From IMG/VR virus record IMGVR_UViG_3300023116_000160, positions 1 to 34,152 of that record: DNA of 34,152 nt. One strand, written 5' to 3'. Under the pieces are notes generated by a model that saw nothing but the letters and a program-made list of their open reading frames with translations, searched no databases and was not told the origin of the DNA. Source of the DNA: a virus. Shown piece after piece: positions 1 to 12,784 of the stretch (positions within the stretch are counted from its first letter, which is position 1; every line of letters begins with the position of its first letter). The translations under genes and the position numbers were made by a program.

Positions 1-3000
1 CTGCGGATCTGCCGAGTTTGAATGCGGAAGAAAAGCGGCAGCTTATAATTAAGCTGTTGGTCAATTATGTTAAGGAAGAGGGTATATCTCAAGCTAAGTT
101 TATAAGAGCATTTGAGCTTGTTTTAGGTTCAACAATTCCTGGCTATAATAATGTGGAGAAGTGGCAGCTTTTAACTTCTTTTATAAACTTTACTGAAGAA
201 GAAGATGATGAAGATAATCCGTTTATGAACGAAGTTTCTGGTGTTGGATCGTTTATTGTTGGAGATCTTTCAACAGGCACTGATTATCAAATGAAAGAGT
301 CTTTGGAAGCCGCATTAGAGGGCGCTTACAGCCTTCCTGATGAGGAGTATGTAAGCTTCCATCCTGATACCGTTGATTTCCATAAGGTAATATTGATTAT
401 ACCTGCTAACGATCAAACTCAGCTTGATGAAAATAATGTTTCTGCAATGATGCTATCTGCAGCAGGTACTCATTTTGGTTATATTAATCAGACAACTGGA
501 AGATTTTATCTAACAGTCGCAGGCAGTAATGTTAAAGTTGATTCTGAAAATAGAAGACTTACTCTTCGACCTAACTTAACTCAAGATGTTCAAACTCCAG
601 ATACTGGCAATACAACTGTTAATAGTGGTATTGCTACTCTGAAGGGTGTTTCTGAATATCAGAAAGCTTACGATGGTGATGAGTATCGTCATTGGGAGAA
701 GATGATGGTTGATACTTCTTATAGAGATGTATCTGGTCGAATGATAAGGGCTTTTCCAACCTACATGCTGTGGCTTATAGATGAGGGTGGTTATTTTGCT
801 GGTGTAAAACTTTTTGATAACTTCTACGGTCTTCAGTCCATTATAGATTTTTCTGTTGTTTCTTCTGAAGACATTATGGGCGATACTCTAATTCTTAGAT
901 TGTCCAATATGTATTCTAAAATAACTCGTCCAGAGTCATCAAAGATTTTTAATCCTAATATTGATGATTTTAATCAGGAAGAATTATCTTTGACTGAAGG
1001 TTTGGCTAATATAGTCGAAAGAACCTTGAACATGTCCAGAAATCTTTTGGGCCACATGCGTCATCAGTATATTGTTGACATTAACAATATTAGACTGAAG
1101 CCTGGTGTTAGGGTGCATTTAAGGGCAGGTTATGGTTCTAATCCAAGTTCTTTAAATACTCTTTTTAATGGAATTATAACTAGTGTTGAGCAGGGTGAGA
1201 TTGTAACTGTAACTGCTCAGTCAGATGCTATAGAGCTAGGTGCTATGGTTAATAGCACAAATAAAAAAGGTGATAGTGGTAAAATAGACGGCGGAATAAA
1301 TACCGGTATGTGGCTATCTGAGCCTAGGGACTTAATGGTCAGACTCTTAAGCATGGGGGCATCTCGTACAAGAGAGGCTTTATTGAGAGCTACTAAGGGT
1401 ATTGTTTTTTCTGAAAACAGATTTGGCATCAGACATTTTGGTAGCATACTTTATGATTTTATGGGCGACGACGCAATTAAGCATGAGCAAATTTCTAATG
1501 CTATAAGTGGAGCATTTACCACAATTGGTAGGGGTAGTGATGTCAATAATTTCTCAAGCAATGAGCGTTCCTCTACTCTAAGCTTAATTGGTACACTGCT
1601 GGCAAATATGCAGTCAGATGTGGATTTAGAATTATTTAAGAGAAATATTTATCCTGGTAATGGTACCGGTATAGCACAGTTTTTGGGTGGAGATATAGAT
1701 GATGGTTGGTCTACTGTGGCCTCACTTACTCCAACAGACTATAATGCCAGATCCTCCTCCGATCTTGCTTCGCTGACTGATAGAACTTGGAATAGGTTAG
1801 TTATGGAATCGGGCCAGGGTATACCTGGATCAAACTTTACTTTAGATACTTTAACTCAAGATAATAAATTGTATGAATCTAGCTCTGGAGATGTTGTAAG
1901 CAATATTTTAGGAATAGCAACTAGCGCGCTATCTGTTCCAATAACTTCTGCGTTAGGTGGACCTATTTCTACCACTGTCGTTGGAGGTTCGCTTCTTGGA
2001 ATTCTTACTGGTAGAGGTGGTAAAAATATATTTAGAACCATGGGCGTAATCTCTATGAATGATGATAGCGATCTTCCTGGTTTTGATGAGGTTTCATTTA
2101 GGGCTCAGACATATATGAGAACTATATGGGATCTATTTCAGACATGTGCAAGACTTCTACCTAATTACATAGTTGCAGTCAGGCCTTTTGAGGATAGGTC
2201 AACTGTTTTTTATGGTAAACCTCATTGGCTGTATACTTCTGGTGTGGTTCCGGTTACGACTGGATATAGGGTTGATAAGTCACCCGCTGCAAGAAAAGAA
2301 GATAACTTTTTAGCTGATTTGTTAGATACGTTAAATAGATCTTCAAATCCTTTATCTGACTATGCAGCTTATTTTAGTGCTCAAGATATTAATGAAGCTT
2401 TTGCTTTAAATGCGAGAGATATTTCTCAAAGAACTGGTATTTATTCTCCAACAGAAAGTTTAAAAAATAAGGTAATTAATTTCTCTGATTCCAGATCGAC
2501 AGTTTATTACGATCCTAGTAATCAGGATGAAGTAGTTTCTAAGATTCCTGTTTCAAAAGGTAATGTATATATTGGTTTTCACCTTCCTGTCAATGGTAAA
2601 GCTAATACTATTCAGGAGCCACATAAGCAAATTTCAAATCTTCCGGACAGATATAGATATCCATTCTTTGCAAATACGGAAAATGTAAAAATTCTTAAAA
2701 GCCCTGCTTTTGATATAGAGGAAGACGAGACAGCTTTCTCGGATAACTTTGGTAGGTTGATGGAGCTTGAAAGAGAGTATTTAAAAGAGACTTCTCAGAC
2801 TCTGCTGGATGTAAATGGTGAGATAGAGTTTGATAAGGTTCTTAATTTTGGTTCTGATATTCAAAAAGCTGCGCTACAATATTCGGGTTCAACAACCGAC
2901 ATAGTTAAAATGCCAGTGCCGGAAAGTTTGCCAGTAGATCAGTTTAGTCCTGTGGAAAATTTTGGTTCTAGTGCAACAGTAGATATATTTTCTGAATGGG

Positions 3001-6000
3001 GATTGCCAGAAACTGAAGAAGATGAGCAGTTTTATATTGCAATGAAGTGGCCTTATTCACCTAGTATGAGTAACTCTGGAGTTGAAAGATTTAAGCAAAG
3101 GTATGGTATACAAGAGGTTTATGGTGGCGTTCAGGACTATAAGAATAGAAAGATTCTAGTTTATAATCCAGTAAATAAAAGGGCAGTGGTTTGTAAGCCA
3201 GCATATTTTTTGTGGGGTGAGTTAGAGGATTCAGATCTGAATAGTCTTTCTGATATAGATGCAGTTGTTTCTCCTGATGCAGCCTATTATCTAGGTGTTA
3301 TTACTGGGGAATTTGACGGTAATGAGTTGGCTGATTGGCTTCGACCATCTGTTTTTATGGAGCTTGACCAATTTGGTTTCACTAAATATCCTAAAAAACA
3401 AGAATGCGTTTTTGCTTTTGTTCCAGATGAAGTTCCTGTTGGTGTTATTTCCCCTCAAATTGCTCCAGCTGAAAAATTCATTTTGAATGAAGTTGATGGT
3501 AGCTCTAACGATTCAGATCTTCTTGTTGGATTTGGATCTTTTGTTGGTGACGATTCTGATGTTCTTTATGCTCGTCAAAATATTTTTGATAATCCAAATC
3601 CGATTGAAATAAATGATTATCTTAATCGCTATCAATCTGTTAGTGCTGCGGATACGTCGTATTTAGATAACTATAAGTTTAGTGGAAATGGCTTTATAGA
3701 TAAAACGCACTATTTTGAGGCTGTTTTAAATAAACAGTTTGATAAACTGGAGTTTGATTATCTAAAGAATATTTATGTTAATGAATTAGAGTCTATTGAT
3801 CAGTCTTCTTCAATTACCGATCAGTCAACAAAGCGTATGACTGGCACATTTACGCCTGTCTATACTGAAATGGATCAAATTTCTATTCAGGCTAGATCTT
3901 TTTATGATGAAAATTATAACCCAGATATTTCTGTTATAGCTGGTGATGGCCGGCATTTGGCTGATGCTCAAGATGTATGGGATGAATTTAGGTATTCCTA
4001 TCACACTTTAGATAGTGTGAAAAAGATATTTTCAGATTTATATGGAATGGATCCGGACTCAGAAGACGCAATGCCAAAGTATATTACAGATATTTTATCT
4101 GGTTCTGAATATAGAGATCCAATTAGAAAATTTTCTACTCCAGGAACTTTAGATAATTTTTCTTTGATACTAGGTGATGATTTTATAAATTCTGGAAATT
4201 CCAACTATCAATATAATCCCACTACTTCTACGATTGATTATCAAACAGATGTTCAGGAAGCATTAGAGTTTGTTAGAACATCTTTTATTGATGCCCCCTT
4301 AGATCAAGGTGGTTTAATTGAAAGTTTAAATAATTTCTTAGCTGTTAGATTGAAAAAGGTTAAGGAAAATTTCTTTGATGATCCAAGTGTTAACAATAAT
4401 CTACAAGTTAGTTTAGAGTCTAACGATTCAGAGATACCGTCGTCAAATTTAGCATCCAAGATTGAAACTCCTAAGCAGCTATTTCTATTAATGGTAGGAA
4501 TGTTTAGGCAAGCTCTTTGGAATAGCCCTTATGGCAGGGCTTGGCTTGTTTTGCAGCCGGATAGAAAGCTTTTTGCTGGTGATAAAATTGTAGATCAGCA
4601 GTGGTCTTTTAGGCCTGTTGACAAGGTGTTTAGAGCTTTTATAGATCCTTATAGCGATTACGCAAAAGGTGCTTTAGCCGATTTTAATGCGAGTAATGTT
4701 GGCGCTACTACTGGTCAGAGTAAGTTCTTAAAGCTTTTAGTTGCCACAAAGGCAGAGGGCAATAGTTCCAATAACGTTGTCTCGTATGCAGCTTCCAGTG
4801 TTAAGGATTTCTTTAGTGAGAATGTTGGGCCAATTTTTAGCGCTCTTACAAATGGTTTAAGCGGTCTTTATTCGATGTTTAAATTAAATATGCAGCAGTT
4901 AGGATACGGTGTTTCTGAAGCAGCTGATTTTAGAAAGCATGCCCATATCATGAATAAGGCTTTAAACGATTCAATTTACTATTCTCTTGGAAGAGAGGGC
5001 TCTCTTTTAAGGGCTGTTGATAATCCATTTACTAGAGAATACGGTGAACCTGTAGTTGAAGTAAGGGAGCCCTTTCAGAGGCTTCATTACTTAAGCTCTT
5101 TCTCTCATATACTGGCTAATAACATACAGGAAAATATTAATGGTGTGGCGACTGTGGTTACTGCAGTTTCGGACGGAAAGTATCCTGTAACTGTAGCTTT
5201 GGATAAGGGTGCGCCAGCGGAAAGGCAGACAGAAAAAACTGTAGAAACCGGTCTTTATTATGACAACATGGTTGGAAGTGGCTTTTTTGGCTTCCTGCAT
5301 CCGCTTATGCATCCGTTAGAAACTTTCAGGGGTGCAGCTAAAAATGTTCAAGGAACTCCTGATGAATTGAGTGCAAGAAGAGTTGCATTAGCACATCTAA
5401 AAGAATCTATTAAAGATGTTTATGGTGGTGAACTTCTGATAATTGGAAATCCTGATATTAGGCCTCATGACATAGTTTATCTTTCTGATGTTTATGAAAG
5501 AATGTATGGTTTGTTTGAAGTAGAGCAAGTAGTTCATCATTTTACGAGCGATCTTGGTTTTGTTACCGCTATTACCCCGAATGCTTTAGTTACTGTTAAT
5601 GATCCTAGTAGATGGTATCTTACTTCTTGGATAAATTCCTGGATGAATACTCAGGCAATTAGAAATGACGCTAGAATCTATTTGGATAGCATTAGAGATG
5701 GCGACTCTTCTATGTTGGTTGGAGGTTCTATTTCTATGGATCGACTTAGCGACATGCTGGGACCTCAAATAGTCGGAGGTCTACAGTTTACTCAGGGGTC
5801 AAGTGCAATAGTAAAAGACGCTATAGCATTAGAGACGGCAAAAGAAATGCCCGATGCTACAGAGGCTGTAATTAGGCAAACTCAGTCAAATACAAACGCT
5901 GCTGGAGGCGCAGCTCTTGCTAGTGTTGGTTTTGGTGTTCTTGCAGGAGCTGTTGCCGGTGTTGCCACTGGTGGTGCTGCTCTAGTAGCTGCACCTATAA

Positions 6001-7259
6001 TTGGTACTTTGGGTTCTCAGTTGGCTTGGAAGGGTTGGAGCTGGGTTAGAGACAATCTTCTAGATCAGCACGGATGCTACGTGCAGTATTTAAATAGAAA
6101 TGGTCAGCCAATGGACGGTGGTTTATCTTATAGTCAGGGAATGGTTGTTGGACAGTATCATAGCAAAGCGCTTCTTCCTGGTATTTTGGGTGTTAGAAGT
6201 AAGGTAAGAACTCCAGAAGGATATTCTTACGTTAGAACAGACGATCTTTTTAAGAGTTTGGGTTGGCGCGAAACAGAGATTAAAGAAGCAGCTAGATATA
6301 TAAGTTATGAAAATGCTCTCGTTCATGCTAGAGTTCTAAATCTTTCTGGATTGGGACCAGAAAAGGCGCAACTAGAACCGCAGTTTAAAGTTATAGTTAA
6401 AGTCGTAGACGTGGTGGACGGTGATACGATTAAGGTTGTAGACGCCATCAGAGGCGGCGATCCCTATACTATTCGTTTTGATGGTATTAATACACAGGAA
6501 ACAAACGTTATAGAAGGAAAGATTTATGCGGAAGAGGGCGCAGAATCACATGAGCTCAGCATATTAGATGTTTCCACTCCTGGTGGTAAGGCAAAGTTTT
6601 TTGTCAAGGAAAGAATATCGGATAGCGTTATTATTTTAAGAATTAATAGATCTAGAGAATCTTTGTCTGGTACGGATCAAGACTTTGATGCTGGCGCCGA
6701 GTATAATCAGCCTGCTAGCTATGTTAAAGATCAGTTTGAAAGAACTATTGCTACAATATTCTATAAGTTCAGTGATGATACTGTTGCACAAAGTGTATCT
6801 TTTGTTTCTTCTATATTTACTTCCTTGATTGATTCTGGTGAAGTTAATAACTTTTTCAAGATTAAAGAAAATTATAAGCAGAAGTTAGATCAGTTCTCAC
6901 CATTCTTTATAGCTTATGACAAGTTGTATAATCAAATTTTTACTCAGGATCAAAAATATCAATTCTTTAATGATTATGTATCTGAATCTTCTGATTTAGC
7001 TCAACAAATTGACGAAAGTAATATTCGTGTTTTTGATACTTTAGTTTATATGAAGTGTTTGGAAAGTGTTTACGAAACTGCTTCTCAGTGGCCTACTATA
7101 TTGTGGGATGAATACTATGAGGATGGTGCACCAGTAACATTGAACTGGGAGCTAGTTGCCAATAACCTAGCTAAAGTTTACGTTAAAGACTTACAAAAAG
7201 AATCGATGTCTATTGTAGATTCTTACGAGCAAGCAGCACTGCCGAGAAGGGTGGATTGA
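1..7259 (+). CDS. Giant tail/baseplate hub protein with C-terminal SNase-like domain (5' partial)
   Basis: The reading frame is open to the left edge (from base 3), so the gene begins upstream. Residues here are counted from the TTG at 18, which need not be the true start. About 2413 residues are visible. Residues 230-400 resemble the first barrel module of gpD/gp27-type tail hubs (KPGxRVHLRAGYG, then LFNGIITSVEQG and VTVTAQSD). Residues about 1780-1860 resemble the closing hub module (IIGNPDIRPHDIVYL, GLFEVEQVVHHF, GFVTAITP). Some 1400 residues of unrecognised sequence separate them. Two glycine/alanine-rich hydrophobic stretches lie near 628-665 and 1961-2010. Residues 2125-2255 look like a staphylococcal nuclease fold: VVDGDTI (D2136), TIRFDGINTQE (R2153, N2158, E2161) and R2242 in FERTIATIFY. 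Placement just before a wall hydrolase and the baseplate wedge genes fits a hub at the tail tip. The hub role is inference from motifs; the SNase call is firmer. The stop lies one base before the next ATG. Confidence 0.7.
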   Translation, partial: ADLPSLNAEEKRQLIIKLLVNYVKEEGISQAKFIRAFELVLGSTIPGYNNVEKWQLLTSFINFTEEEDDEDNPFMNEVSGVGSFIVGDLSTGTDYQMKESLEAALEGAYSLPDEEYVSFHPDTVDFHKVILIIPANDQTQLDENNVSAMMLSAAGTHFGYINQTTGRFYLTVAGSNVKVDSENRRLTLRPNLTQDVQTPDTGNTTVNSGIATLKGVSEYQKAYDGDEYRHWEKMMVDTSYRDVSGRMIRAFPTYMLWLIDEGGYFAGVKLFDNFYGLQSIIDFSVVSSEDIMGDTLILRLSNMYSKITRPESSKIFNPNIDDFNQEELSLTEGLANIVERTLNMSRNLLGHMRHQYIVDINNIRLKPGVRVHLRAGYGSNPSSLNTLFNGIITSVEQGEIVTVTAQSDAIELGAMVNSTNKKGDSGKIDGGINTGMWLSEPRDLMVRLLSMGASRTREALLRATKGIVFSENRFGIRHFGSILYDFMGDDAIKHEQISNAISGAFTTIGRGSDVNNFSSNERSSTLSLIGTLLANMQSDVDLELFKRNIYPGNGTGIAQFLGGDIDDGWSTVASLTPTDYNARSSSDLASLTDRTWNRLVMESGQGIPGSNFTLDTLTQDNKLYESSSGDVVSNILGIATSALSVPITSALGGPISTTVVGGSLLGILTGRGGKNIFRTMGVISMNDDSDLPGFDEVSFRAQTYMRTIWDLFQTCARLLPNYIVAVRPFEDRSTVFYGKPHWLYTSGVVPVTTGYRVDKSPAARKEDNFLADLLDTLNRSSNPLSDYAAYFSAQDINEAFALNARDISQRTGIYSPTESLKNKVINFSDSRSTVYYDPSNQDEVVSKIPVSKGNVYIGFHLPVNGKANTIQEPHKQISNLPDRYRYPFFANTENVKILKSPAFDIEEDETAFSDNFGRLMELEREYLKETSQTLLDVNGEIEFDKVLNFGSDIQKAALQYSGSTTDIVKMPVPESLPVDQFSPVENFGSSATVDIFSEWGLPETEEDEQFYIAMKWPYSPSMSNSGVERFKQRYGIQEVYGGVQDYKNRKILVYNPVNKRAVVCKPAYFLWGELEDSDLNSLSDIDAVVSPDAAYYLGVITGEFDGNELADWLRPSVFMELDQFGFTKYPKKQECVFAFVPDEVPVGVISPQIAPAEKFILNEVDGSSNDSDLLVGFGSFVGDDSDVLYARQNIFDNPNPIEINDYLNRYQSVSAADTSYLDNYKFSGNGFIDKTHYFEAVLNKQFDKLEFDYLKNIYVNELESIDQSSSITDQSTKRMTGTFTPVYTEMDQISIQARSFYDENYNPDISVIAGDGRHLADAQDVWDEFRYSYHTLDSVKKIFSDLYGMDPDSEDAMPKYITDILSGSEYRDPIRKFSTPGTLDNFSLILGDDFINSGNSNYQYNPTTSTIDYQTDVQEALEFVRTSFIDAPLDQGGLIESLNNFLAVRLKKVKENFFDDPSVNNNLQVSLESNDSEIPSSNLASKIETPKQLFLLMVGMFRQALWNSPYGRAWLVLQPDRKLFAGDKIVDQQWSFRPVDKVFRAFIDPYSDYAKGALADFNASNVGATTGQSKFLKLLVATKAEGNSSNNVVSYAASSVKDFFSENVGPIFSALTNGLSGLYSMFKLNMQQLGYGVSEAADFRKHAHIMNKALNDSIYYSLGREGSLLRAVDNPFTREYGEPVVEVREPFQRLHYLSSFSHILANNIQENINGVATVVTAVSDGKYPVTVALDKGAPAERQTEKTVETGLYYDNMVGSGFFGFLHPLMHPLETFRGAAKNVQGTPDELSARRVALAHLKESIKDVYGGELLIIGNPDIRPHDIVYLSDVYERMYGLFEVEQVVHHFTSDLGFVTAITPNALVTVNDPSRWYLTSWINSWMNTQAIRNDARIYLDSIRDGDSSMLVGGSISMDRLSDMLGPQIVGGLQFTQGSSAIVKDAIALETAKEMPDATEAVIRQTQSNTNAAGGAALASVGFGVLAGAVAGVATGGAALVAAPIIGTLGSQLAWKGWSWVRDNLLDQHGCYVQYLNRNGQPMDGGLSYSQGMVVGQYHSKALLPGILGVRSKVRTPEGYSYVRTDDLFKSLGWRETEIKEAARYISYENALVHARVLNLSGLGPEKAQLEPQFKVIVKVVDVVDGDTIKVVDAIRGGDPYTIRFDGINTQETNVIEGKIYAEEGAESHELSILDVSTPGGKAKFFVKERISDSVIILRINRSRESLSGTDQDFDAGAEYNQPASYVKDQFERTIATIFYKFSDDTVAQSVSFVSSIFTSLIDSGEVNNFFKIKENYKQKLDQFSPFFIAYDKLYNQIFTQDQKYQFFNDYVSESSDLAQQIDESNIRVFDTLVYMKCLESVYETASQWPTILWDEYYEDGAPVTLNWELVANNLAKVYVKDLQKESMSIVDSYEQAALPRRVD

Positions 7260-7260
7260 T

Positions 7261-10206
7261 ATGGAAAGTTTTATCTCTGAAGATCTTTCTACATTTAGAA
7301 GCATAACTAAGAGAGCGATACAAAATGCCTACCCCGAAGGTGAAATAAGGGTAAAGGGCACAACTAACTCCATAGAAGGTCCCTCTAAAAACACGTTAAC
7401 GAGTAGAACAGTTTCTGACTTCTTAAACAGTGATGCTCTGTATAGGAGTTTTAAGTTTTCCGGTCAGTTTAATTCGCAAAGTGTGGAAAGTTCTCTAAAT
7501 GGTCTTTTGATCGGTGGCGCAGAAACCGCAGTTTCAATTAGCATCAATAATGCCGATGAAAATGGTGAAAGCGATTTACTTGTTCTTGATCCTGACAGTT
7601 TGTCTTCTGATCCGAATTCTGCAATAGTTTTAAGAGGTGGTCCAGCTTTTTCTGAGATATTGGCTTCATCGGTTGTATCTAGAAATGGTTCGGATCAGTT
7701 TGTTAGAAATTCATTAAATAATGCTACAGCAAGAATGAATGGATACTTGCTATCTACTGAAAGCAGGGGGCTTTCCTCTACTTCTATTGATGGCAATGTT
7801 CACGATAGCACTTATAATTATGTGACTGGCGTTGAGCTTACTGGTGCTGTCGGCAGAGATGTGGCTATTGGTGCCGACATGTCTGCTGAAGAGCTGGGTT
7901 GGCATAAGGATAGATTGAGGCTTCTTAATGATTCTGGTATTGTTGAAGATTCAGGTAGTTTAGTTAATGGATTTACTTTTGATATACCAAATGATGTTGC
8001 TAATTTAAGGCAGACTTCGCAAAGTTATGGTGGAAATTTTACTACTTCTTTAGTCAATCAGGATATTATCCAGAGTAATGATTCAACCGTAGCCTATCTC
8101 GCGCCTGCACTGATAGAGCTTTTGTTATATTTATCTTCAGATGATTCTGACGTAACTATCAGATGTAATACGGGGGTTAGTAGTCAGATAGTTTCTTCTA
8201 ATGATGTTTATAATATTAACTCTTCTACTACCGGGATGTATGTTTTGGATCACGTTTTTGGTAGGGCTGTAGATATTACGCAAATATCTAGAAGAAATGG
8301 TCAAGACTCTGTTAATTTTTATAATAATGGAGATGGTGTTTCTGGTTCTTCCTTTAGAATTGGTTTTGAGCTTTTGATGGAAGAGCTTAATATTATAGGT
8401 ATGAGTCATCCGTATCTTCTTCCTGATTCTATATCTGTTCATCCGGATTTGGCTACAGAGTATGAAGTTAGTGATGATAGTTTTGAGCTTGGGGAATCTG
8501 CATTAAGAATCAGGTATCCTGGTTTAAGGAATGTGGATTTTCACAGTAATAGTTCTCAGCATAGGAATCATATACATTTAAGCTTTGGTGCGTATAGGTC
8601 TGGAATATATTCTGGACCAGGCGTTTTGGCTTTAGAGGCAGGTGGGCGAGAAAGTACTATCGATTTTTCTGACGGGCATGCTGATGCACTACCTCAGATA
8701 GAGGGGTCATATGTTTTGATTGGAGATTTATTTGAGGATCCTAGACTTAATGTTAGCTACAGAAATAGTCAAGGAACATCTCTTTCTGCGCAAGAAGTTT
8801 TTGATCTATTAAGGGGAACAGTTTGCTCGGACGAAGCCGCCGCAATTTTTACTGCAATAGCTGAAAGAGAAACTAATTTTAGACCCGCCGCTTTTAATCC
8901 TCAGGCAAGAATCTCTGGTTCTACTTCAGGTTCAACTCAGCAAAGAGTTATTACTCCAAATGATTTTGTTTTAAAGGGTGAAGAAGCAAAGCAGCAGCAA
9001 GATATAAGGGGCGTGACTTCGTTGTATATCAATAACAGTCCTACATCTTCTCAGGTTGCTCTTCCTGCTAGTGAGATTCCCGGCTGGGATTGTTCTGGAT
9101 TTATTTACTGGATAGCGTATCAGCTTGGAATATATTTTAAAAACGTTGGTGGTAGATGGCAGTTGACAACTAACTCTTCCGAAAATGCTGACTGGAGTTT
9201 GACTAATACTATTGCAGATATTATGCGAGATGCCGGCGAGCTTTTTACCTTAGGCGATGGTAGTGCAGATGTTCAGAGGGCTTTAGATACAAAAGGCGCT
9301 TTGCTAGTGTATCCTTGGACAGATAAGGATACACGTCTTCCGACTACTCCTGGGGCTAGTAATGGTACTGCTGGTCATGTAGGTATATCTATTGGTGATG
9401 GATCTCAAATAATAAATGCAGCTAATACTCAATCTGGACTTAAGCTGAGTCCAGCTAAGGCAAGTAATGCATATCAGTATCCAGATGGAACGTATAAGTG
9501 GACCCATGTTGGCTACTTTCCTGGTATTAACTATAGCGAAAATGTGAACCTAGTTGATGCGGGGTCGGTAACTGGTGATTGGTCAGTTACCCTTTGGCAG
9601 ATAAATATGCTTGCGCATGGCAGTAAAGATTTTTCTTTCTTTTTTCCAAATAGTGGTACGAGATCTGGATGGAAGTTGGCTTACAAAGATTGGAGTCAAG
9701 AGGGTGTAACAACTTTTGATAATTTTAAAATTTCAGCAGGTGTTGCAGGAAATAATTATAGGAGTAGAACTCCTGGTTATTCTGATACAGAAATGTATAG
9801 ATATCTTTCGGATGAGGTTCTTACTCCAATTAATCAACCTTTTATGTTGTATAAGGTGATTACTGATGTAACTCCTGATGGTGTTTTGACTGAGGATCAG
9901 AAGCTTGGTTTAAACGCCGAGTCAGCATATTACTTTTTTCCTTGGGGTGATTATGGTGGTGGTCCAGATTATGGTTGGATTTCTAATGTTGATTTTCAAA
10001 CTGCAATAGAAGTTTATGAAAGTTCAACTGGAAAGAGCAAAACCGTTTTAAGGGATTGGGTTTTAAGAATGTTTGAGACTTCCGGGTCTAGTTCTAAATC
10101 CGCTCAATATGCGGAGAATTGGGTAAATGGTTGGTACTATGAGGTTAGATGGTCTAATGGATGGCAGCCCTCAGATCCAGTTAGAAGAACTATAATTAAC
10201 TACTAG
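7261..10206 (+). CDS. Tail-associated cell-wall hydrolase: M15-like peptidase plus lysozyme-like fold containing an NlpC/P60 domain
   Basis: A 981-residue protein, probably a baseplate lysin that cuts peptidoglycan during DNA entry. Residues 1-280 are unrecognised. Residues about 290-445 carry the zinc-site pattern of M15-like D-Ala-D-Ala peptidases: H331 in DHVFGRAVDI with D338, and H437-I-H439 in HRNHIHLSFG. At 525-545 the sequence AIFTAIAERETNFRP matches the start of lysozyme/SLT folds, with E537 as likely catalytic acid. The matching second half, GDWSVTLWQINM, appears only at residues 772-783. Between them (about 560-745) sits an NlpC/P60 domain: C611 in WDCSGFIYW, H706 in GHVGISIGDG and N719 in IINA. 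This looks like one fold inserted in another. ATG 7261 follows the hub stop directly, with AGAAGG at 7245-7250 as ribosome binding site. There is no signal peptide, as expected for a virion protein. Activity of all three domains is inferred from motifs. Confidence 0.8.
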   Translation: MESFISEDLSTFRSITKRAIQNAYPEGEIRVKGTTNSIEGPSKNTLTSRTVSDFLNSDALYRSFKFSGQFNSQSVESSLNGLLIGGAETAVSISINNADENGESDLLVLDPDSLSSDPNSAIVLRGGPAFSEILASSVVSRNGSDQFVRNSLNNATARMNGYLLSTESRGLSSTSIDGNVHDSTYNYVTGVELTGAVGRDVAIGADMSAEELGWHKDRLRLLNDSGIVEDSGSLVNGFTFDIPNDVANLRQTSQSYGGNFTTSLVNQDIIQSNDSTVAYLAPALIELLLYLSSDDSDVTIRCNTGVSSQIVSSNDVYNINSSTTGMYVLDHVFGRAVDITQISRRNGQDSVNFYNNGDGVSGSSFRIGFELLMEELNIIGMSHPYLLPDSISVHPDLATEYEVSDDSFELGESALRIRYPGLRNVDFHSNSSQHRNHIHLSFGAYRSGIYSGPGVLALEAGGRESTIDFSDGHADALPQIEGSYVLIGDLFEDPRLNVSYRNSQGTSLSAQEVFDLLRGTVCSDEAAAIFTAIAERETNFRPAAFNPQARISGSTSGSTQQRVITPNDFVLKGEEAKQQQDIRGVTSLYINNSPTSSQVALPASEIPGWDCSGFIYWIAYQLGIYFKNVGGRWQLTTNSSENADWSLTNTIADIMRDAGELFTLGDGSADVQRALDTKGALLVYPWTDKDTRLPTTPGASNGTAGHVGISIGDGSQIINAANTQSGLKLSPAKASNAYQYPDGTYKWTHVGYFPGINYSENVNLVDAGSVTGDWSVTLWQINMLAHGSKDFSFFFPNSGTRSGWKLAYKDWSQEGVTTFDNFKISAGVAGNNYRSRTPGYSDTEMYRYLSDEVLTPINQPFMLYKVITDVTPDGVLTEDQKLGLNAESAYYFFPWGDYGGGPDYGWISNVDFQTAIEVYESSTGKSKTVLRDWVLRMFETSGSSSKSAQYAENWVNGWYYEVRWSNGWQPSDPVRRTIINY

Positions 10207-10587: not shown

Positions 10588-11241
10588 ATGTCAGAGATTA
10601 ATTTCGATTCTTTAAGAAAGATGTATGATCAAAAAACTCATTATCCTGTATCAGAGGAAGTAAAAAGAAGAAATGAGTTTTCTGATAGAGAAGTTGGGTT
10701 AACGCATCCTGATTTGTCTAGTTTTTTAAGACTTAATGATCAAGGCGATATAGAGATTTTTGCTGCCCCAGGTGTTGGCATAGTTATTTCTTCTAAGTCT
10801 AAGAGTATATCTTTTTTTGGAGACTCGGTTAGATTTTTCTGTCAAGAAGATGGTTTGAGGTGGAATAATTATAAGTTTAATTACGCTGCATCTAGTTATA
10901 TTGAGCCCACTTTGGTTAAGATAAATCGTAAAAGCATTCACTCAGCACAAAATGGAATATCGCATTATATGGATATGATTAGTGTTTTAGAAGAGGAAGA
11001 GCAGCAAAAAACCATTACTATAGATAAGAGTTACGGATACGGTAACGCTCAGGTGCTTCCAGAACAAAATCTGACTTCAAATGTAGATTATTCAAATCTT
11101 TCAGTTGAACAAATAGGTTTGCTGGAAGCTTATTCTACAGATTATTCTCCTGAGCATATTAATCTAATTGTAAAGTTTATTGAGCAAGGTCTTGATTTTA
11201 ATCAGGCACATGAAAGAGCATTAAGGGAAACAAATGAGTGA
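10588..11241 (+). CDS. Unknown protein of the baseplate core cluster
   Basis: 217 residues; ATG 10588 directly follows the previous stop and the 3' end overlaps the gp25-like gene by 8 bases, so translation is probably coupled on both sides. I do not recognise a family. Residues 1-45 are charged and likely helical. Residues 45-105 are beta-rich with short alternating strands (GDIEIFAAPGVGIVIS, SISFFGDSVRFF, GLRWNNYKFNY), which could be a small beta-prism or needle-like domain. Residues 125-150 are acidic. Residues 175-215 form a helical tail (SPEHINLIVKFIEQGLDF, then AHERALRE) reminiscent of a three-helix UBA-like fold. Between an OB-fold spike protein and a wedge protein, a role as spike extension or hub-wedge adapter is possible but unproven. 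Confidence 0.5.
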   Translation: MSEINFDSLRKMYDQKTHYPVSEEVKRRNEFSDREVGLTHPDLSSFLRLNDQGDIEIFAAPGVGIVISSKSKSISFFGDSVRFFCQEDGLRWNNYKFNYAASSYIEPTLVKINRKSIHSAQNGISHYMDMISVLEEEEQQKTITIDKSYGYGNAQVLPEQNLTSNVDYSNLSVEQIGLLEAYSTDYSPEHINLIVKFIEQGLDFNQAHERALRETNE

Positions 11242-11614
11242 TTTCTATTTCACGCTTAGTGGAGATATTGCGCTAAATGGTTCTAAGGATATTGCTCTTA
11301 CGAACTCAGCTATGCAGTCGGATATACAGCAAGTATATATTAGGTTAATGACTGAACCTGGTGATTTCTATATATATCCTCTTTTAGGAACTGATCTTTC
11401 TGTTCTTTACGGTATGCCACAGCGGTCTTCTACGGGTGAGCTTGGTAAGAAGATAATTAGAGCAGCTCTTCAAAGAGAGGGATTGTTTAGGGAAAGAATG
11501 ATTAAGATTGATGCTGTTCCTACAGGTCCAGATACTATCAGGTTTGATATTCATATCATGTCTGATCTTGATCAGCCAGTTACCTTATCTATTAATCAGG
11601 AATTAGGAGCATAA
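11234..11614 (+). CDS. GPW/gp25-like baseplate wedge protein
   Basis: 126 residues. T4 gp25 and its relatives sit in the inner baseplate wedge and trigger sheath polymerisation. The family layout is visible: an N-terminal strand pair (FYFTLSGDIALNGSKDIALT), a helix with SDIQQVYIRLMTEPGDFYIYP containing the conserved helix-turn 'L.T.pGd....P..G', then LLGTDLSVLYG, a second helix (GKKIIRAALQREG) and final strands (IRFDIHI). The length is normal for the family. ATG 11234 lies inside the end of the upstream gene, and the next gene begins at 11615, immediately after this stop. This gene is the main evidence that the phage has a contractile tail. Confidence 0.85.
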   Translation: MSDFYFTLSGDIALNGSKDIALTNSAMQSDIQQVYIRLMTEPGDFYIYPLLGTDLSVLYGMPQRSSTGELGKKIIRAALQREGLFRERMIKIDAVPTGPDTIRFDIHIMSDLDQPVTLSINQELGA

Positions 11615-12784
11615 ATGACTGTTTATGGTGTTAAAAATAAATCTGAGATACTTGTCTCTATTCTTGACGGACTTCAAAAGAATGCTGGCATCACAGCTGT
11701 TCATCCAGGTTCTGTAGCTAGAGCTTTTGCAGAGGCAGTTAGCGATGAGGTTTCTGACTTGTACGAAGCTTTTAGGTTTACTGTAGATCAATCCGATCTT
11801 TCTACTGCTTCAGGAAGAAATTTAGATCTAATAGGAGATCTGTACGGTGTACAAAGAAAGAGTGTTAGCAATCAGGTATCTATAGAAAGAAGATCTTTTA
11901 ATATTGAGTTTTATCTTTCTAAGCCACATAGTACATCTGTGGTAATTCCAGCTAACACACTTATCTACAATGATGTGAGCAACTTCGCCTCGAAGCAGTA
12001 TAGCTATACGGTTCAGGAGGCAGTGACTATTCCCGCTGGTGCTACAAGAGCTTACGGTAGAATAGAGCCTAATTTTAATAACAATACGTATGTGGCACCT
12101 AAGGGTACTTTAACAAAACATAATTTTGTATCTCCACCTTCTGTCATCGTTTTCTGCACAAATCCAAAAGAAGTTTACGCCAACATTTCTGCAGAGTCAG
12201 ATGCAAACTATAGAAGAAGGATAATGGCTTCTATGAAGACTAGGGTTTCAGGTACGGCAGAGTCAATACGCTTTGCTGCGCTATCTGTTTCTGGTGTGAA
12301 AGATGTAAGGATACGTGAAGCCTCTTATGGTATAGGGTCCTGTGATGTTATAGTGGTTCCTGAGGTTGGTTCTTCTTTTAAGAGAATGCCAGAAGCAGTC
12401 TTGGCTGCCATTAATTCCGTTAAACCTGTTGGAGTAAGATTTAATGTTTCTGTAGCAGAAAAGGTCGCTGTCGGACTTAATTTAACAATAACTATTCCTT
12501 CGGGTAATAGCGGTAGTGTTGTTCAGGGAGTAAGGAATCAGTGTGCGCTGTTTATCAAGAGGTATCTGAATTCTTTGACGATTGGTGATTCTGTTTTTCT
12601 AAGTGAAATAGAAAGACAGGCTAAACTTTCTTCAGATATAATTAGAAGTGTGACTATTAATTCTATGACTGCAGATGGAAGAGAGGTTCCGCTTAAAGAT
12701 TTTTCCCCTTCCGGTGTAAGAGAGTATCTTGCAGCTGGAAATGTTAATGTTTTCTCTGTTATAATAGGTAACAGTAATTACTGA
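11615..12784 (+). CDS. Baseplate J-like (Mu gp47 family) wedge protein
   Basis: 389 residues, typical for baseplate J/gp47 proteins, which build the wedge around the hub with gp25. The N-terminal family pattern is clear: PGSVARAFAEAVSDEVSDLYE (residues about 30-50), then SGRNLDLIGDLYGVQR (about 66-82), where the conserved 'A.G..Ld.ig...gv.R' motif lies. The middle has the strand-rich insertion expected (TSVVIPANTLIYND, VTIPAGATRAYGRI). ESDANYRRRIMASM followed by GTAESIRFAALSVSGVKDVRI is the conserved 'E.d..yR.ri.......Gt...i...a..v.GV..v.v' segment. The C-terminus has PVGVRFNV and strand-helix pairs. The start overlaps nothing; AGGAG lies just upstream and the previous stop is at 11614. The gp25-J order is the canonical wedge pair. 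Confidence 0.88.
   Translation: MTVYGVKNKSEILVSILDGLQKNAGITAVHPGSVARAFAEAVSDEVSDLYEAFRFTVDQSDLSTASGRNLDLIGDLYGVQRKSVSNQVSIERRSFNIEFYLSKPHSTSVVIPANTLIYNDVSNFASKQYSYTVQEAVTIPAGATRAYGRIEPNFNNNTYVAPKGTLTKHNFVSPPSVIVFCTNPKEVYANISAESDANYRRRIMASMKTRVSGTAESIRFAALSVSGVKDVRIREASYGIGSCDVIVVPEVGSSFKRMPEAVLAAINSVKPVGVRFNVSVAEKVAVGLNLTITIPSGNSGSVVQGVRNQCALFIKRYLNSLTIGDSVFLSEIERQAKLSSDIIRSVTINSMTADGREVPLKDFSPSGVREYLAAGNVNVFSVIIGNSNY

Follow-up and report, generated by a model that had tools for sequence, protein, structure and literature searches.

The gene directly 3' of the baseplate hub gene in the virus record IMGVR_UViG_3300023116_000160 (IMG/VR) raises the question of whether one wall-cutting enzyme carries a second one inside its own fold. 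The window analysed here is this virus contig over its full length of 34,152 bases, and all coordinates refer to its + strand. The gene in question is the ORF at 7261–10206, which encodes a lysin of 981 amino acids. The original prediction had proposed that an NlpC/P60 domain is inserted within a lysozyme-like fold. In the ORF translation, the motif AIAERETNFRP of the first lysozyme half, previously assigned to residues 531–541, is present at residues 532–542, that is, it had been misplaced by one position. GDWSVTLWQIN starting at residue 772 as well as C611 (in WDCSGF) and H706 (in GHVGIS) were found exactly as described.

The neighbouring genes indicate in which context this lysin operates. 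Upstream, a hub-like gene (3–7259; PHROG 20474, E = 3e-77) is truncated by the contig start; hub ORFs in relatives encode ~3,500–4,000 amino acids, and the TTG start at 18 of the hub ORF is therefore an artefact. Downstream, a gene for a gp25-like baseplate wedge protein of 126 amino acids (11234–11614), which has weak PHROG baseplate matches and is conserved in 18 relatives, is followed by a gene for a Baseplate J-like protein (11615–12784; Pfam Baseplate_J, E = 2e-14). These neighbours place the lysin gene among the baseplate genes of a large tailed phage, and the same gene order occurs in most relatives that were fetched via the hub or the gp25-like gene. Near its C-terminus, the hub ORF also contains a staphylococcal-nuclease-like motif (VDGDTIKVV...IRFDGINTQE; window 6400–6560), which is present in the related loci L002, L012 and L023 and was not found in most other relatives; Pfam gave no match.

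A direct search with the 981-residue protein retrieved no relatives from IMG/VR (using short patterns), from cultured phages or, by sequence, from the PDB. Relatives were instead obtained via the neighbour genes, that is 35 IMG/VR loci with the hub protein and 80 further loci with the gp25-like protein, supplemented by an extra scan with the second lysozyme half. The site of the presumed insertion is crossed without a break in 130 ORFs, corresponding to 81 distinct domain sequences and 58 clusters at 90% identity. Pairwise alignments revealed that query residues 1 to ~547 and ~771 to 966 match adjacent stretches in the relatives with almost nothing between them, and a multiple alignment agrees. 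A lysozyme profile built mainly from uninserted relatives matches these relatives as one piece (81 distinct domains) and the window protein in two consecutive pieces, with profile positions 3–72 corresponding to residues 482–553 (E = 4e-20) and positions 69–260 to residues 769–967 (E = 5e-67). In the relatives, the residues matching 482–548 and 771–967 make up a single uninterrupted lysozyme-like domain. In the window protein, the first lysozyme half comprises residues 491–548 (8731–8904) with the invariant pair R536-E537, and the second half residues 771–967 (9571–10161) with D773, Q780 and N782. Between them lies a segment of ~222 extra residues (549–770; 8905–9570), which has low-confidence linkers at both of its ends and is lacking in all uninserted relatives. 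The proposed insertion is borne out by this difference between a two-piece and a one-piece match.

The identity of the interrupted domain was addressed by profile comparisons. As anticipated, the joined flanks scored better against Pfam SLT_3 than the single pieces, reaching 22.0 bits (E = 2.2e-4) across the junction as compared to 13.1 and 13.5 bits, which is below the curated cut-off of 27; the relatives likewise stay below the cut-offs of SLT_3 and Phage_lysozyme2. Both families span the site weakly in uninserted relatives (E = 2e-4 in L017 and 5e-4 in L104). A profile of 14 uninserted domains yielded C-type lysozyme as its best match (E = 0.006) with the E and GLFQ motifs in register; the alignment reads 'RESglnpsslnpkkltgDfslGlfQln' over 'YESNFNTRAFNGKNANGSYDYGLFQLN'. 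The Glu of this motif, E537, is invariant in all 81 uninserted relatives and in both inserted proteins known so far (see below).

An AlphaFold model computed from 32 aligned sequences provided a structural view of the split domain. The two lysozyme halves obtained pLDDT values of 84–96 and 80–96, respectively, and pack into one fold, as had been predicted, rather than placing the helix with ERETNF and the segment with LWQIN in unrelated domains, an outcome that would have spoken against nesting. C-type lysozymes align nearly over their full length to model residues 506–923 (Z 7.2–8.2, rmsd 2.8–3.5), the best match being 2fbd (Z 8.2, 112 of 122 residues, rmsd 2.9), and hen and human lysozymes reach Z 7.5–7.8. 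These Z scores were obtained in a second look with VIA-align; plain Foldseek against the PDB returned nothing below E 0.001 for either the full-length model or a model of the insert. Thus, the lysozyme is discontinuous in sequence and forms one fold in the model. That the host domain would work like a lysozyme is suggested by this modelled fold together with the conserved Glu. The insert follows the helix that bears the catalytic Glu, precedes the 'GD.S...WQ.N' strand and is flanked by model strands 545–547 and 774–776. Judged from the alignment, the insertion point probably corresponds to the turn of the first β-hairpin after the catalytic Glu (~46–49 in hen lysozyme numbering).

What is the nature of the guest? 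The insert alone scored 22.3 bits against Pfam NLPC_P60 (cut-off 23) and 19.8 bits against CHAP (cut-off 26), and we assign it to the NlpC/P60-CHAP superfamily without deciding between these two Pfam entries. Since both the host and the guest domain score below cut-off, Pfam alone misses nested cases. When modelled separately, from an alignment to the relatives' C-terminal peptidases, the insert yielded a model of modest confidence (pLDDT 52, pTM 0.59), which matched 46 chains at Z ≥ 8, with few exceptions NlpC/P60 proteins. The best match was 6biq (Z 10.4), and the list includes Bacillus subtilis LytE and CwlO, Escherichia coli MepS and the peptidase lobe of the diffocin hub-hydrolase. The match covers model residues 22–217, equivalent to residues 562–757 of the protein (8944–9531), leaving ~13 low-confidence linker residues on each side. 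C611 is positioned at a helix N-terminus and H706 at the start of a strand, as is typical for the catalytic Cys and His; both residues are conserved in the second nested protein and aligned with their counterparts in the C-terminal peptidases of relatives. From its spacing, N719 is a candidate for the third catalytic residue. In the full-length AlphaFold model the insert has a pLDDT of only 27–49 because just two sequences carry it, a confidence too low to position it against the lysozyme. A muramidase-type and an endopeptidase-type site had been envisaged to share one nested globule. The nesting holds, but the P60 domain appears in the models as a separate lobe tethered by the two short, low-confidence linkers.

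To date, the split lysozyme is confined to the window and to contig IMGVR_UViG_3300033182_001391 (L002; refetched as L037, L038, L120 and L121). A comparable insertion is absent from all alignments of uninserted proteins, whose largest other insertions measure 17–31 residues and are located elsewhere. Further relatives of the insert were found neither in IMG/VR nor in species genomes, and phages provided only matches with E 0.5 or worse. The two nested lysins share 72% identity over the whole protein and 71.5% within the insert, and with pS ~0.65 their synonymous sites are near saturation. The dN/dS ratio is ~0.13 in the insert and in the C-terminal lysozyme half alike (0.05 and 0.135 for the two lysozyme halves), which indicates that the insert, with its complete NlpC/P60 fold, is kept by purifying selection. 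In a tree calculated without the insert columns, the nested pair forms one clade with a support of 100 and a long stem among the uninserted proteins, so that the insertion is most simply explained by a single derived event. With ~58 other groups of related phages possessing an uninterrupted lysozyme, we conclude that the insertion of one enzyme into another is natural and real here, so far seen in two related phages. Relocation of a C-terminal peptidase into the lysozyme was also considered as its origin and is unsupported, as the insert resembles those peptidases at the motif level only.

Could the apparent nesting have a more trivial cause? As a contig from a virus record, the window might in principle contain two genes fused by a mis-join or a sequencing artefact. 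However, identical junctions are present in the second contig, and 72% protein identity combined with nearly saturated synonymous divergence identifies the two as independent genomes, which excludes a chimeric assembly for practical purposes. Scarcely more credible is a self-splicing element, an intein or intron whose excision would leave a normal lysozyme behind. Such elements typically sit inside conserved enzyme motifs, as this insert does, but here the frame is open throughout, the window contains no Rfam intron match, and the insert folds as an NlpC/P60 domain with catalytic residues rather than as a Hint domain. In addition, the host Gly next to the junction is replaced by Thr, a change that would be unneeded if excision were precise. 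It is equally improbable that the domains are merely adjacent in tandem and that the helix and the LWQIN segment resemble a split lysozyme by chance. Apart from the weak Pfam scores of the single pieces nothing was found in favour of this idea. It conflicts with 81 distinct relatives in which the homologues of the two pieces run on without a break, with the E-values of the two profile matches given above and with the single lysozyme fold in the model.

A more serious alternative concerns the activity of the host domain. R536, E537, D773, Q780 and N782 are kept in the inserted lysozymes. However, both inserted proteins have Thr at position 777, four residues past D773, where the G-[LMI]-[FW]-Q motif starts with a Gly that all 81 uninserted domains retain. 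Position 854 is Leu in both inserted proteins and Trp in 71 of 77 cases. Because Thr777 replaces the motif Gly, we refrain from a specific SLT/GH23 assignment. Going by these substitutions, the inserted lysozyme may be weakened, retuned or changed. It is conceivable, albeit with limited probability, that the nesting is real and the lysozyme is no longer efficient, acting mainly in scaffolding or wall binding for P60, or that P60 regulates the lysozyme. The loss of both conserved residues would fit such a role, for which the conjugation hydrolase PrgK provides a precedent: it contains tandem LytM, SLT and CHAP domains, of which only the SLT domain is active in vitro, while LytM and CHAP downregulate its muramidase, that is, neighbouring hydrolase domains regulate without cutting (PMC11323569). 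On the other hand, retention of E537, D773, Q780 and N782 and the purifying selection acting on both lysozyme halves speak against this alternative.

Upstream of the lysozyme, the protein contains an additional domain that had escaped the original prediction, as had the relatives with P60 or CHAP domains at the C-terminus. Structure, weak Pfam matches and conservation point to an M15/LAS metallopeptidase-like domain at residues ~200–450 (7858–8610) with a conserved core at ~266–450. Model residues ~200–460 match MepA (Z 5.6 and 5.4), LysECD7 (4.8) and the DD-peptidase 1lbu (4.6) with moderate Z scores, and weak Pfam M15/extensin matches are observed in relatives. The H(x6)D and HxH zinc-site motif is present, with H331, D338 and H439 being invariant in 32 sequences and H437 conserved in 27 of them. 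The lysin is therefore predicted to carry three enzyme-like domains, namely M15/LAS, lysozyme and NlpC/P60. Its gene context in the baseplate module suggests that the protein is part of the virion. Taken together, the protein is very probably a virion-associated baseplate peptidoglycan hydrolase, in which an M15/LAS domain precedes a lysozyme with an NlpC/P60 domain inserted in its first β-hairpin turn. Upon tail contraction, the lysin head would meet the cell wall. There the lysozyme would cut glycan strands, and P60, which two short linkers would keep beside the glycan cleft, would cut the stem peptides attached to these strands. With the M15 domain cleaving further peptide bonds, a local hole for DNA delivery would open. 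In such a hydrolase, nesting presumably improves the cooperation of the activities. More tentatively, a peptidase at the substrate-cleft hairpin might couple glycan and peptide cleavage, or one site might gate the other, and loss of the GLFQ glycine would then be how the host fold adapted to its guest.

Known multi-enzyme tail lysins line up their domains like beads on a string. In phage T4 gp5 a lysozyme is likewise part of a nested baseplate protein, but there it is the guest inside the hub, whereas here the lysozyme is the host. The closest working parallel appears to be the diffocin hub-hydrolase, which its authors liken to scissors whose two blades, a transglycosylase and an NlpC/P60 peptidase, are joined sequentially (PMC11329794; PDB 8v3w). 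It is also a baseplate component of a contractile machine, combines glycan-cutting (lytic transglycosylase) and NlpC/P60 lobes in one chain, and its P60 lobe matches the inserted P60 with Z 10.3. However, its hub, transglycosylase and P60 parts follow one another without nesting, and an M15 domain is lacking. PrgK of pCF10 and TraG of pIP501, conjugation hydrolases of the DELTA family, similarly cut the wall with peptidase, lysozyme/SLT and CHAP domains united in a single chain, with three enzyme-like domains in PrgK, but these are arranged in tandem, the metal domain is LytM instead of M15, and the proteins belong to a secretion system instead of a virion (PMC11323569). In Bacillus phage vB_BauM_KLEB27-3, gp036 is encoded directly after a homologous hub gene and comprises an SLT domain (Pfam, E = 1e-30) and, by eye, an M15-like motif. 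In this case the canonical SLT comes first and the M15-like motif second, P60 and nesting are lacking, and no homology to the window lysozyme is detectable. Nested lysozyme-P60 enzymes were not found in the literature searched, which described tandem arrangements only; as coverage of subscription journals was thin, this is weak evidence. What is new is thus the nested arrangement, so far in two related uncultured phages, within an otherwise known kind of multi-domain virion lysin.

A further comparison is offered by the uncultured relatives themselves (e.g. L013/L017, L006 and L104), which combine M15 with the homologous lysozyme at the same gene position. Three layouts occur, i.e. M15-lysozyme, M15-lysozyme-peptidase and the nested form. 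The C-terminal peptidases, present in many relatives, are NlpC/P60 (L013/L017) or CHAP-like domains; unlike in the nested form the lysozyme is uninterrupted, and these peptidases are similar to the insert at the motif level only. By providing an empty site and a peptidase elsewhere, the relatives set up a natural experiment that asks if two wall-cutting activities cooperate differently when nested. A lysozyme loop that tolerates a 222-residue guest may also be useful for compact lysin design.

Several relatives show further peculiarities. The lysins at L142:3495–6416 and L144:3309–6443 (974 and 1,045 amino acids) are homologous and extend C-terminally to the lysozyme by ~400 residues without any Pfam family match. 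At L031:17572–22283, the lysin region is rearranged and split over three ORFs, apparently with two lysozyme copies that are separated by a CHAP-like domain and a linker rich in Thr and Pro. In L035 (19350–19430) and L019 (13015–13110), whose contigs are 83% identical, a +1 frameshift at the identical place within the lysozyme disrupts the homologous lysin gene and may represent a programmed frameshift, an inherited break or an error. A +1 shift is also needed in two other contigs, L023 (19540–19640) and L080 (960–1140), in both cases just after 'WQTNF' in the lysozyme.
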